A DNA stretch of 64,000 nucleotides from Lachnoclostridium sp. Marseille-P6806. GTDB taxonomy: Bacteria; Bacillota; Clostridia; Lachnospirales; Lachnospiraceae. Below, in pieces: positions 5,665 to 63,655 of this stretch. Positions within the stretch are counted from its first letter, which is position 1. Every line of letters starts with the position of its first letter. Both the position numbers and the translations under genes were made by a program. The notes below the pieces were generated by a model. That model did not search any database, was not told the DNA's origin, and saw only the letters and a program-made list of their open reading frames with translations. The stretch spans positions 62,001 to 126,000 of the forward strand of contig NZ_LR130581.1 in the NCBI RefSeq assembly GCF_900625025.1. Reading direction: 5' to 3'.

Positions 5665-5684
5665 ACTAATTCTCCATGCCGACT
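5665..5684 (-). repeat. partial copy of dispersed ribosome-binding element (before nadE)
   Basis: The minus strand reads GTCGGCATGGAGAATTAGT directly before the nadE ATG. This matches the core of the element found complete at 51057-51150 and 63030-63106, but no hairpin is obvious upstream. Confidence 0.5.
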
Positions 5685-10414: not shown

Positions 10415-10435
10415 GACTATCCTCCATGCCGAACC
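10415..10435 (-). repeat. partial copy of dispersed ribosome-binding element (before amino-acid permease)
   Basis: The minus strand reads GGTTCGGCATGGAGGATAGT immediately before the permease ATG. It contains the conserved core, with GGAGG serving as the ribosome site. Confidence 0.65.
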
Positions 10436-10485
10436 GCTCTTCCGCACGCTTCCCCTGCCGCGGAGCGCCGGCGCTTCTCATGATA

Positions 10486-24490: not shown

Positions 24491-24561
24491 AGCGTCCTCC
24501 ATTCTGAAACATTTTGCGCGAGCCGTACAAGAAACCAGCGCATCCGCATGGTTTTTCACAC
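24491..24561 (-). repeat. copy of dispersed ribosome-binding element (before GH20)
   Basis: The minus strand begins GTGTGAAAAACCATGCGG, has a hairpin with AAACC pairing with GGTTT, and ends with TTTCAGAATGGAGGACGCT just before the ATG. The first part matches the copies at 26457-26612 and 57595-57666 except for changes that keep the pairing. Confidence 0.7.
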
Positions 24562-26214: not shown

Positions 26215-26456
26215 TTTCCTGCTGTACTTTATGCCTTTTTTACTGTATACGTCCCCTGTCAAACGATGAAATGGACGCCATGCCGGCATGAGAGGACATT
26301 TCAGCATTTGACAGGACAACCGGTATGAGCCAAGCAGGACGACAACCCGGATTTCTCATACCTGTCAGCGCTGCGGGAGCTGCCGAAAGCAGAGAAGCAG
26401 CGCTGGGACTTATACCTATGGCGGCGCCGACGCAGCCGGCATGCGCGTTTACTTTA
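26215..26456. other. gene-free stretch
   Basis: This stretch of about 240 bp lies between the phosphoribosyltransferase promoter region and the repeat copies. It has no open frame with a ribosome site on either strand. Weak inverted repeats such as CATGCCGGCATG-type sequence near 26278-26289 are the only structure seen. Confidence 0.5.
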
Positions 26457-26612
26457 ATCCTCCATGCCGAAGCGTTCCTTTGCGAGGCACGCGCTGTAAG
26501 CACCCTGCGCCGGCGCGCAGAGATGCAAGCCGCTTCGCGTCTCATGCCGTCCCACTACGTAACAGCACTTTTCGCTCACGGAGCAAATCAGCGCATCAGC
26601 GTGATTTTTCAC
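26457..26612 (-). repeat. dispersed ribosome-binding element, long orphan copy
   Basis: The minus strand starts GTGAAAAATCACGCTGATGC, forms AAATC/GATTT pairing and ends CTTCGGCATGGAGGATTAA. No gene follows. Between the ends the frame is open for 52 codons from the GTG to the TAA. It could be read as a short peptide whose last codons, Met-Glu-Asp-stop, contain the GGAGGA. A second copy abuts it upstream. Confidence 0.7.
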
Positions 26613-26683
26613 ATTATCCTCCATTGCCGCGTTCCCTGCGGCGCCCGAGAGAAAAATTCCGCGCAGGCGAATTCCCCTGCGAT
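26613..26683 (-). repeat. dispersed ribosome-binding element, second orphan copy in tandem
   Basis: The minus strand reads ATCGCAG, then an AATTC/GAATT hairpin around CGCCTGCGCG, and ends CGGCAATGGAGGATAAT directly before the GTG of the neighbouring copy. The loop matches the copy before the TetR gene (63030-63106). Confidence 0.65.
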
Positions 26684-26737
26684 CAAAATTTCCTCTGGTG
26701 ATCGAGAAGCTTCGAAAGCTCCGTATCAACGCGACTG

Positions 26738-39792: not shown

Positions 39793-39810
39793 GCTTTTCC
39801 TCTTTCCCGC

Positions 39811-39904
39811 GAGGCGAATTTCAAATTCGCCGATGCGATCTACGACTCGGTGCATCGCACCGAGGTCGGAGCTTGAACGTTCTGCATCAGCAGAACGTTC
39901 AAGC
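39811..39904. repeat. array of three consecutive inverted repeats
   Basis: Three palindromes follow each other. They are GGCGAATTTCAAATTCGCC near 39813-39831, then CGACTCGGTGC/GCACCGAGGTCG around ATC, then GCTTGAACGTTCTG/CAGAACGTTCAAGC (39871-39904, 14-bp perfect stem with a CATCAG loop). They fill the gap between the MmcQ-EVE gene and the deacetylase gene. No T-run is present, so this is a repeat element rather than a terminator. Confidence 0.85.
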
Positions 39905-51056: not shown

Positions 51057-51150
51057 ATTAATCCTCCATGCCGAAGCACTCCGTGCAAGGCACGCGCCGT
51101 AAAACCACCCTGCGCCGGCGGTTTTACGGCTGCGATCAGGGGCGGTTTGG
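51057..51150 (-). repeat. complete dispersed ribosome-binding element (before CDP-glycerol transferase)
   Basis: The minus strand has GCAGCCGTAAAACC, a loop and GGTTTTACGGC (11-bp stem, 51096-51106 with 51120-51130). GCGTGCCTTGC follows, then GTGCTTCGGCATGGAGGATT and the ATG. Against the copy at 63030-63106 the stem shows a T-A to C-G exchange on both sides. Confidence 0.75.
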
Positions 51151-51166
51151 GCTTCGGCACAAATCG

Positions 51167-51889
51167 CTATAATCCGAAAATCTTCCGGCTCTCGCCCGCA
51201 TCGACGATGGCCCGGAAAATATAGAAATCGACCGGTGTCGTGATCTTGATGTTCTCTGTCTGCCCCTGCACGGTGTAGAGCGGCATATCGTAGTGCCGCG
51301 CCATGCTGGCGGAGTCAATGAAATCGTTCCGGCCCTCGAGCGCGGCCCTCTGATGAAGATTCAGCAGGTCCATCAGAAGAAAGCACTGAGGGGCGCGCGC
51401 CATTTCGCACTGCCGCCGGTCCAGTATCGTCCCGACCATGCCGTCCGTGCTGTCCAGAAAGATCGTCTCCGTCGCCGGGACGACCGTGATGGCGTTGCCG
51501 TGCTTGTCCGCGCACGCAATTGCCCTGCTGATCGTCTCCGGCGCAACCAGAGGCCGCACGCCGTCGTGAATCAGCATCAGCGAGTCCTGCGGGAAATACT
51601 GCGTTGCCGCGACAAGACCGTTGCGAATCGAGTCCTGCCCGCTCGCGCCGCCGGGCACCACCGCTTTCACCTTGGTGATCCCGAATTTGCGGATATATTT
51701 CCACATCCTCGTAATCCATGCTTCGAGGCAGACGACGATGATCCCGTCGATCTCCTCATGGTTTTCAAATTTTTCCAATGTATATATGATGATCGGCTTG
51801 CCGTACAGTTCGAGAAACTGTTTGGGAACCGAGGTATTCTTCATACGGGTTCCGGTTCCGCCGGCAAAGATCAGCGCACAGTTCTTCAT
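51167..51889 (-). CDS. IspD/TarI family cytidylyltransferase
   Basis: This 240-residue nucleotidyltransferase has the signature FAGGTGTRMKNTSVPKQFLEL and HDGVRPLV, followed by TENIKITTPVDFYIF. IspD makes CDP-methylerythritol, while TarI/Bcs1 homologues make CDP-ribitol for wall polymers. Location between LicD and the glycerophosphotransferase gene argues strongly for TarI-like polyol-phosphate activation. No TarJ reductase is present, so the substrate is open. It ends 110 bp before the next gene, in front of the dispersed element. Confidence 0.85.
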   Translation of the reverse strand: MKNCALIFAGGTGTRMKNTSVPKQFLELYGKPIIIYTLEKFENHEEIDGIIVVCLEAWITRMWKYIRKFGITKVKAVVPGGASGQDSIRNGLVAATQYFPQDSLMLIHDGVRPLVAPETISRAIACADKHGNAITVVPATETIFLDSTDGMVGTILDRRQCEMARAPQCFLLMDLLNLHQRAALEGRNDFIDSASMARHYDMPLYTVQGQTENIKITTPVDFYIFRAIVDAGESRKIFGL

Positions 51890-57565: not shown

Positions 57566-57594
57566 GTCCAAGAAGCGCTGCTGCCCTCGCATCA

Positions 57595-57666
57595 ATCCTC
57601 CATGCCGAAGCATTCCCCAGCGAGGCACACGCTGTAAAATCCGCGCATCAGCGTGATTTTTCACAC
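57595..57666 (-). repeat. dispersed ribosome-binding element after the AraC-like gene
   Basis: The minus strand starts GTGTGAAAAATCACGCTGAT at the stop of the pseudogene, has AAAATC/GATTTT pairing and ends TGCTTCGGCATGGAGGATTG. No real gene follows; a 45-codon frame after it runs through the terminator. Confidence 0.7.
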
Positions 57667-58432
57667 TATTCTCTCCGGACAATCGGAATCCAGAGCTCCA
57701 TCATATAATCCGGGCTGTACATATCTCCCTCGGAATGGACCTCGAAGTCCGGCGATCCCGCGTGCATATAGCCCTGCTCCGGCAAAAACACTTCCATGGC
57801 ATATTTCCAGCCCCATCTCCTCTGCCGTCGCCGCATCACCGACATGATAACAGGCCATGTAATTGATTCTGTTTTCATCTTTCACATCAAAGCACATCCC
57901 ATAGCTCTGACCGTTCCCCATGCGGGAAAGCGCGGCGTGATCATATTTTGCATACAGTTCCTCCCAGACCGCCGGACAGGAGGACGAATCAATGTTCTCC
58001 GATTTGATCCCGGCCACCGTGAATCTGCTCTTCCTCTGAATTCTTACATCCATGTTTTTTCCTCCTTTCACACTCAGCATCAGCCGAACGGGAGAGACAG
58101 TCCGATACGCCTCTCCGCTGCGTACCTCCGTAGGCGTCGCATGATGAAAGCTCTTAAAAGCGTTCGCAAAGGAATCCGATGATTCATAGCCGTACTTCAC
58201 GGCGATCTCTATGATTTTATCGTCGGTTTCCCTGATCTCCGCCGCGGCTTTCGTCAGCCTCCTGAGCCGTATGTATTCCGACAGCGTCATGCCTGTCAGA
58301 ATGGAAAACAGTCTGCTGAACATGGCATAGGAATAACCGGAAAGACGGGCGATCCTGCTCTCATCAATCTCTCCGTCCAATACGCTTTCCATATAGCGTA
58401 TCGTCTCATTAGAACGCTTTCATCATCTGCAT
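57666..58432 (-). pseudogene. AraC-type regulator with GyrI-like domain, two frameshifts
   Basis: The intact form would be ~255 residues: an AraC helix-turn-helix pair (LSEYIRLRRLTKAAAEI, GYESSDSFANAFKSFHHATP) and a GyrI-like effector domain ending EGDMYSPDYMMELWIPIV. The start at 58432 has an AGGAGGGAA site and reads MQMMKAF, then hits TAA. One base too many near 58411 breaks the frame. Near 57804, in an AAA run on the minus strand, a second extra base moves the C-terminus to another frame. Two single-base insertions could be mutation or sequence error. Confidence 0.8.
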
Positions 58433-62969: not shown

Positions 62970-63029
62970 TCGGCAATATTCGACGAAACGAAAGAAAGCC
63001 GACAAAAAAAGCGCTTGTGTTGAAAAAAC

Positions 63030-63106
63030 CGAATCGCAGCCGCAAAACCGCCTGCGCGGATTTTGCGGCACGTACCTCGTCGGGGCGCTTCGGTATGGAG
63101 GTTTTT
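63030..63106 (+). repeat. complete dispersed ribosome-binding element (before TetR gene)
   Basis: ATCGCAGCCGCAAAACC pairs through GCCGCAAAA with TTTTGCGGC (9 bp). It is followed by GCACGTACCTCG and GCGCTTCGGTATGGAGG directly before TTTTT and the ATG at 63107. It is the only plus-strand copy. Confidence 0.75.
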
Positions 63107-63655
63107 ATGAAACGGACAGATGCAAGGGTGCGTTATACGCAGCATATATTGAAGCAGTCTTTTCTGACGCTGCTCAAGGAAAAGCCGGTCAATAAGATCA
63201 CGGTAAAGGAGGTCTGCGAACTCGCAGACCTGAACCGGGCAACCTTTTATGCGCACTACAGCGACTGCTTTGCACTCATGGAAAGCATCGAGCAGGAGTT
63301 GATCGATGAATTTGAACGCTTCCTGAAGCTGGTGGACTCTTATGATGTAAGTGCCCTGATCGAAGCGATCTATGAGATGGTCGAAAGGAATGAGGAGGCC
63401 TGTCAGATATTGATTTTCAGCGGGGCCAGCCCCTCTGTTCTCAGTCAGATGATCTCCCTTGCCCATGATGAGAGCATCCGGGCATGGAGGAAGCCGCTTC
63501 GCCACGCCACCGATAATGATTTGGAAATGCTGTATACGCACCTGTCAAACGGGCTGATGAATGTTGTCATCGGCGGATATGATAAATACAGCCGGGAGGA
63601 CGTCATCCGCTTCGTCAATCGCATTGTCCAGAGCAGTCTGTCGATATTCCAATGA
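63107..63655 (+). CDS. TetR/AcrR family transcriptional regulator
   Basis: This 182-residue regulator has the N-terminal three-helix DNA-binding domain (ILKQSFLTLLKEKPVNKITVKEVCELADLNRATFYAHY) and a helical ligand domain with the SLMESIEQELIDEF-type link. The C-terminal part resembles the TetR_C_7/DhaS-like group. The ATG at 63107 follows GGAGGTTTTT from the dispersed element. The longer frame to 62963 would read through that element. It is divergent from the epimerase gene, its likely target, and has a terminator 29 bp downstream. Confidence 0.9.
   Translation: MKRTDARVRYTQHILKQSFLTLLKEKPVNKITVKEVCELADLNRATFYAHYSDCFALMESIEQELIDEFERFLKLVDSYDVSALIEAIYEMVERNEEACQILIFSGASPSVLSQMISLAHDESIRAWRKPLRHATDNDLEMLYTHLSNGLMNVVIGGYDKYSREDVIRFVNRIVQSSLSIFQ

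Follow-up and report, generated by a model that had tools for sequence, protein, structure and literature searches.

A small folded non-coding DNA element has spread through a genus of gut bacteria. The explanation that we prefer, with a probability of about 0.8, is a small non-coding and non-autonomous mobile family whose members insert in sense orientation at or directly after the Shine-Dalgarno sequence (SD), a few bases before the start codon. The interrupted gene keeps a ribosome binding site (RBS) because the 3' end of the element is itself an SD; judged from the sequence, a gene with an insertion can probably still be translated. The window is a 64-kb stretch (positions 62001-126000 of contig C8) of a 3.13 Mb draft genome, in which the original prediction had described a dispersed structured element carrying the RBS of genes without shared function. 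Matches throughout the genome and unrelated downstream genes bear this description out, and so does the search of Rfam for its remark that the element was not recognised as a described family: no match reached the gathering score over the element in the window or in eight loci, and a sub-threshold match of AS-pc01 over one copy (L075; 30.2 bits against a gathering score of 79, E 0.13) was read as chance.

Structure of the element

Alignment of the copies together with their flanks resolved four palindromic modules, M1 to M4, which span about 140-150 bp and end on the 3' side in an SD before the start codon. M1 is a 13 bp palindrome (GTGTGAAAAATCA/TGATTTTTCACAC) with the loop CGCTGATGCGC, M2 consists of GGCTATTTG/CAAATAGCC with the loop TGCCGAAGCC, and M3 of GCCGCAAAA/TTTTGCGGC. 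M4 pairs GTGCC/GGCAT around GCAC/GTGC and is followed by GGTGATT or GGAGGATT and then by the start codon. Furthermore, a nine-base complementarity links the M2 loop to GCTTCGGCA, which forms the 3' strand of M4 and ends at the SD. By inspection, the left end (AGTGTGAAAAATCA) and the right end (GGCATGGNGGATT) of the element are not inverse to each other.

The copies in the window (Table 1) were scored with two covariance models, R1, built from copies of the window's genome, and the broader R2, whose E values for these copies come from a search of 384 kb. The two main copies of the original prediction are present with their shared layout as written, at 51063-51136 (-) and 63033-63101 (+); this layout is only the 3' half of the element, and lacked the second hairpin M2 (51141-51168) as well as the 5' hairpin M1 of full copies. 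In the first of these copies the M2 loop TGCCGAAGC (51151-51159) is complementary to GCTTCGGCA (51069-51077), and the stop codon of the preceding IspD-type gene touches the element at 51169. The gene behind the second copy starts at 63107 and is weakly TetR-like, with PF14278 below its cut-off. Eight further copies had been proposed. Those at 26457, 26613 and 57595 stand by sequence, with weak R2 support (E 0.012, 0.016 and 0.0019, respectively), those at 24491 (M1 and SD kept) and 10415 (an M4-SD-like end) are remnants only, the former without an R2 match at E<=0.1 and the latter without an R2 match, and those at 5665, 34519 and 45678 hold little beyond GGCATGG(AG) before a start codon, gave no R2 match at E<=0.1 and are indistinguishable from ordinary ribosome-binding sites. 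Likewise, the paired arms that had been assigned to a single hairpin belong to different modules, AAACC/GGTTT (24491) to M1 and GAATT (26613) to M3. The long copy at 26456 is inserted immediately behind the SD of the one at 26615-26712, a serial insertion within the window (26459-26690).

Table 1. Copies, hairpins and relics of the element in the window, with adjoining genes
Feature	Position	Strand	Basis
Copy without M1 (M2-M3-M4-SD)	51060..51169	-	R1 106 bits, R2 79 bits
Genes flanking the 51060 copy: IspD-type gene; start of CDP-glycerol transferase	51170-51889; 51056		Pfam
M2 hairpin of the 51060 copy	51141..51168	-	alignment, pair counts
M3 hairpin of the 51060 copy, GCCGTAAAA/TTTTACGGC	51096..51130	-	sequence, alignment, pair counts
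M4 and SD of the 51060 copy: M4 GTGCC/GGCAT (51068-51093), SD GGAGG (51063-51067)	51063..51093	-	sequence, alignment, pair counts
Copy with M3 (63039-63069), M4 (63072-63096, GTACC/GGTAT) and SD (63097-63101)	63014..63104	+	R2 E 5.6e-10, R1 66.9 bits
Copy with M1 and M4-SD, most of M2-M3 gone	57594..57668	-	sequence; R2 E 0.0019
Long copy: M1 with M0, then M4-SD; no clear gene downstream	26456..26616	-	sequence; R2 E 0.012
Older copy (M3-M4-SD) preceding the long copy	26615..26712	-	sequence; R2 E 0.016
Relic: M1 (arms AAACC/GGTTT) plus SD, upstream of a glycoside-hydrolase-20C-type gene	24495..24561	-	sequence; gene by Pfam
M4-SD-like relic before an ABC-transporter permease gene	10421..10446	-	sequence; gene by Pfam

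Some copies depart from the four-module layout. An additional module of about 85 bp, M0 (GTGCTGTTACGTAGTGGGACGGCA... with a CTCTGCGC/GCGCAGAG hairpin), was recognised by eye inside the M1 loop or the M3 loop of some copies (window 26459-26616 (-), L009, L045 and other copies of the window's genome), placed as if it were a separate insert of its own. A rearranged copy (L032:7636-7780, +) has M1 followed by GGCGATTTGGGCTTCGGCATGGGG, which looks like one M2 arm joined to the inverted M2 loop, and a copy common to the sister species G035 (L273) and G021 (L282) shows a change of 24 nt inside the M1 hairpin between them. A weak further R2 match in the window (39796-39869, -; E 0.0059) is possibly chance. 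In addition, a Clostridiales-1 RNA (RF01699) lies at 26248-26412 (+), just downstream of an element copy and on the opposite strand, and such a neighbourhood recurs in a second species (L115:1261-1428, +); the idea that it is the same RNA as the element was rejected, since it belongs to a family of its own and is encoded on the strand opposite to the element.

Genomic distribution

With up to two mismatches allowed, the end motif CTTCGGYATGGAGG has 315 sites in the genome, 57 of them exact, where the reversed pattern has 73, and the M3 pattern RTCGCAGCCG-N(12-40)-CGGCGYG occurs at 24 sites against none, one of which (L057) was dropped as by eye it is coding sequence and not a copy. The covariance-model search of the genome and its relatives, which the original prediction had suggested, found 87 R1 matches at E<=0.001 in the window's genome, with 150 of 2659 candidates scored; the best 67 of them (E<=1.9e-7), minus three outside the fetched sequence, make up our catalogue of 64 copies. 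All genomes compared are drafts. Of 61 genomes, 22 gave R1 matches, the window's own among them; 21 of these belong to the genus and one (G043) to another family of the order. With R2 the spread within the genus is patchy: of 62 genomes, 40 have copies, the maximum being at least 61 copies in one genome where at most 62 candidates per genome were scored, and several that are fairly complete have no copy, for instance G085, G072, G061, G016 and G017. Across a sample of the class, with 19 candidates scored per genome, the window's own genome was the only positive one of 196, and five other listed genomes of its family gave no copy. Exact M1 was found at ten loci of named genomes, assigned to Lachnospiraceae (eight), Lachnospira (one) and Eubacteriales (one), and R1 matched at all ten.

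Evidence for mobility

Orthologous loci with and without a copy, a comparison likewise suggested beforehand, were found between the sister species G021 and G035, with G083 as a more distant relative. Twelve G021 copies were examined against G035, of which eight were resolved, five being shared and three empty in G035. Before an RnfC-like gene, G035 reads GAAGAGGC-TC-AACATGG, and G021 carries, between the same GAAGAGGC and AACATGG, an element of 149-151 bp ending in GGTGGTA, with flanks that are 98-99% identical. The two other copies, before signal-peptidase-like and TrmD-like genes (all three gene names by recognition), are absent from G035 within flanks of 95-96% identity. All three insertions sit immediately ahead of the start codon, at or within the native SD; on the right side the three bases next to the ATG are preserved, differences affect 2-5 nt of spacer or SD, and none of the three sites has a target-site duplication. 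At the signal-peptidase-like gene the native SD is replaced and not kept on the left. At two of the three sites, those on C58, the spacing in G083 resembles that of an empty site, judged by coordinates only, which favours insertion over loss.

Other loci were compared over more genomes. Upstream of ClpB, 27 of 30 loci from 61 genomes were without an element (by eye, up to 230 nt), and G000, G010 and G079 carry different copies, that of G010 being two related units in series, each after an SD. Upstream of PyrB, the element is present only in the window's genome among 30 loci, with the start misplaced in L205, L210 and L217. A length difference of 208 bp between G036 and G025 near an element did not, by eye, resemble an element copy and was set aside. 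The element is mobile, and the prediction that it is mobile or amplified thus holds by its copy number and by the three filled and empty sites.

Insertion next to start codons

In 61 of the 64 catalogued copies a start triplet falls between -3 and +14 nt relative to the model end; this count requires no open reading frame (ORF), and we estimate that roughly half of all random stretches of equal length would satisfy it. An ORF of at least 60 amino acids starts no more than 25 nt away in 50 copies, and several of the remaining 14 hold M0, so that the model ends early. On the other side, a same-strand open frame of at least 80 codons ends at most 400 nt before the copy or inside it in 60 of 64. 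The downstream genes are unrelated in function and include LepA, PyrB, PyrI, HisH, PyrE, ClpB, GlmM, AroA, GuaB, ArgR, TrpRS, FtsY and RibF, names that rest on recognition of translated starts without a search. Copies in other species are less closely tied to gene starts: of 68 distinct copies, 45 lie before an ORF start, compared with 29% of random positions, and at least six of the 23 that do not have another copy behind them.

Of 41 full copies, 26 have an SD core on the left side of M1, where shuffles give 12.9 (and at most 21 in 1000 of them), the frequency in background 14-mers being 14%; the other 15 have no SD-like left flank. These left flanks bear on a further explanation, namely that the SD and a GTG left of M1 translate a leader peptide through the element, which overlaps the downstream start and couples translation. 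Besides the SD-like flanks, it would account for the frame from the left GTG, open to the model end in 22 of the 41 full copies, and for L099 (G000:C3:254497-254602), which reads in frame into a 3-hydroxyacyl-CoA-dehydrogenase-like gene (340 residues). However, the frame is broken in the other 19, on which count we rejected this reading as very improbable; moreover, the stops that close the other two frames are for the most part common by descent, the start codon is changed in several copies (GCG, GCA, GTA) and the peptide differs in other species.

Many copies are incomplete on the 5' side. The M1 pattern fails in 23 of the 64 catalogued copies, at least two of which (C7:134760 and C1:359828) carry a diverged M1 by eye, and in ten of the 23 the stop of the upstream open frame lies inside the modelled element. 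Many of the 57 exact end motifs CTTCGGYATGGAGG occur at sites without an R1 match. Such sequences are compatible with 5' modules that are lost and an RBS end that is retained; for the shortened copies, truncation from the 5' side by reverse transcription is an alternative. Most of the structure seems dispensable for the gene, as the downstream genes are unrelated and sites with the SD end alone are common, and on the same two grounds the earlier suggestion of a general translation control is not borne out.

Covariation

Paired changes are visible already within the window's own genome, where, among 24 copies, one M2 pair is UA in 12, AU in six and GC in four, and one M3 pair is CG in 14 and UA in nine. 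Eight of 30 pairs change on both sides against 4.0 in shuffles (one of 500 as high), with a covariation score of 0.138 against 0.079 (none of 500 as high); for the pairing of the M2 loop with the tail, 127 of 500 shuffles were as high. Relatives in other species, found with R1, gave a cross-species set of 80 matches from 66 loci (73 distinct rows). Here pairing holds in 93% of the cells, and both sides vary in 29 of the 30 pairs (21.5 in shuffles). As to the significance of covariation, which the original prediction had wished to see tested, the covariation score is 0.569, compared with 0.158 for shuffles and no more than 0.087 when the partners are slid, in an alignment that was fitted to the R1 structure and thus leans towards it. 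The loop-tail pairing is absent from the R1 structure used for the alignment, and its longest run averages 8.03 over 69 distinct sets, compared with 5.98 in shuffles (maximum of 300: 6.62). It is formed by loop and tail sequences as divergent as TGTTTCTGAGCGA/TCGCTCAGAAATG, GTCGAAGCGC/GCGCTTCGAC and TGTGCCGGAGCAC/GTGCTCCGGCATG; several cross-species copies are without a good loop-tail pairing. The stems and the pairing of the M2 loop with the stretch before the SD co-vary strongly across species.

The balance of G-U and A-C cells differs between modules. A stem of at least 9 bp occupies the M1 position in 66 of 80 rows (duplicates included), often with 13-17 bp around a GAT-containing loop, and across species M1 has 20 G-U against 5 A-C cells (54 distinct arm pairs). 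The counts are 17 against 13 in M2 and M3 and 14 against 14 in the long-range pairing (54 of 69 sets). The lack of a G-U excess in these two sets speaks against an RNA-only reading, because stems that act only as RNA should give more G-U than A-C; the palindromes may be active as DNA, or template switching during replication may keep them perfect. The selected structure that had been proposed is borne out only in part, as the paired changes are strong and the G-U excess over A-C is missing from M2 and M3 and from the long-range pairing.

These data touch two further explanations. It is unlikely that the paired changes are entirely the result of palindrome correction by template switching instead of selection for the fold, which would make the element a mobile repeat with a structure that is functionless in itself. 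Watson-Crick pairs do dominate, with G-U about as frequent as A-C and both rare in M2 and M3 and in the long-range pairing, and a palindrome-correcting replication could produce part of the pattern; yet the four-module layout and the loop-tail pairing persist across species despite different sequences, and M1 prefers G-U. Improbable to a greater degree is a cis-acting RNA for translation control (a thermometer, an attenuator or a ligand-bound pseudoknot), in which the M2 loop pairs beside the SD and switches access to it, spread over many genes. The conserved pairing beside the SD that co-varies across species, the G-U preference in M1 and the location before start codons would suit such an RNA, but its downstream genes have no common function, orthologues are mostly without the element, the SD end alone is kept at many sites and the G-U preference does not extend to M2, M3 or the long-range pairing. 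Nothing that we found requires a regulatory role.

Mobilisation

For the non-autonomous family that we prefer, an enzyme acting in trans would recognise the folded ends together with an SD-like target. Insertion would replace the RBS, the element entering the junction between SD and start codon and bringing its own SD. Afterwards the host would need only the RBS at the 3' end, so that M1 to M3 would decay and leave M4-SD relics. More tentatively, the element may represent a new class of mobile element with the RBS as its target, in which pairing between nucleic acids would guide the enzyme to the SD and, the SD being rebuilt, essential genes would be entered without loss; we regard this as possible, with the odds somewhat against it.

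A non-autonomous derivative of a known class of insertion sequence (IS200/IS605 with its hairpin ends or IS110 with its bridge RNA), or of a retroelement, mobilised in trans, would agree with the missing target duplication, the hairpins inside the element, the loop complementary to the element end and the 5'-shortened copies. This origin was followed with one family search each for Y1 transposase, IS110 and reverse transcriptase in 22 genomes. No Y1 transposase was found in the element-rich G000, G021, G031 and G035, which are drafts 87-97% complete in which a loss or a gap is possible. The IS110 domain was absent or below its cut-off in eight genomes with the element (G021, G014, G062, G064, G008, G031, G066 and G074), the recombinase being present in G000, G015, G027 and G035. 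Reverse transcriptase was not found in G021, G035, G014 and G064 and is present in G000, G015, G031, G066, G027 and G074. The window's own genome has one IS110 match, one reverse-transcriptase match and no Y1 match. Furthermore, none of the 70 loci around the best matches of the three families holds an element copy. A link to IS200/IS605, IS110 or reverse transcriptase was rejected, as there is no association with element content across the 22 genomes and no copy at the 70 loci, and descent from one of the known classes appears somewhat unlikely. As single observations, G085 has 29 IS110-type matches and no element copy, and G066 has six reverse-transcriptase matches and 34 element copies.

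Relation to known elements

Classical MITEs are short, multi-copy, non-coding and mobile, with target-site duplications and terminal inverted repeats. The element shares the former properties but has no target-site duplication at three of three sites and no terminal inverted repeats, which excludes classical MITEs as its home. Non-autonomous elements of the IS200/IS605 type and REP elements have folded ends and make no target duplication; the element likewise has hairpins near its ends and no duplication at the three sites, but the Y1 transposase is missing from four element-rich genomes. The IS110 bridge RNA is small and structured, with loops that pair with the DNA where its element ends, and the M2 loop complementary to the end of the present element may be likened to it by analogy only, as the element encodes no recombinase and is not associated with IS110 genes. 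A derivative of a retroelement or group II intron differs in that reverse transcriptase is missing from four element-rich genomes, and a riboswitch or other cis-regulatory RNA in that the genes downstream of the element are not related in function.

Nearest in type are small folded mobile repeats such as bcr1 and BOX. The bcr1-bcr3 repeats of the Bacillus cereus group are described as small, interspersed and MITE-like, often in UTRs or intergenic stretches of operons; compared by this description, the element differs by inserting at the SD-start junction and ending in an SD (PMC3446304). BOX, RUP and SPRITE of Streptococcus pneumoniae are small interspersed repeats with extensive predicted secondary structure that are co-transcribed with genes, some being modular and some having ORFs, and their description, as far as it goes, has neither insertion at the SD nor a supplied RBS (PMC3049150). 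RU-1 to RU-3 of enterobacteria (PMC2759123) and the Rickettsia palindromic elements (PMC10969869) are portrayed as small mobile palindromic repeats that can carry reading frames and that fuse with or insert into genes, in contrast to the three of three sites before start codons here. Among the open-licence papers listed, titles and the opening lines of abstracts pointed to no element that enters between SD and start codon, which is weak evidence.

The gap between SD and start codon is among the worst places for an insertion. If our reading is true, an entry that restores the RBS would explain the arrival of a selfish sequence in dozens of operons, also in those of housekeeping genes, and it would point to a mobilising enzyme with an unusual target. 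The element would then also leave ready-made ribosome binding sites behind, so that the origin of some 5' UTRs would be traceable. Its copies are, in addition, a natural test of how much structure beside its SD is tolerated by a gene.
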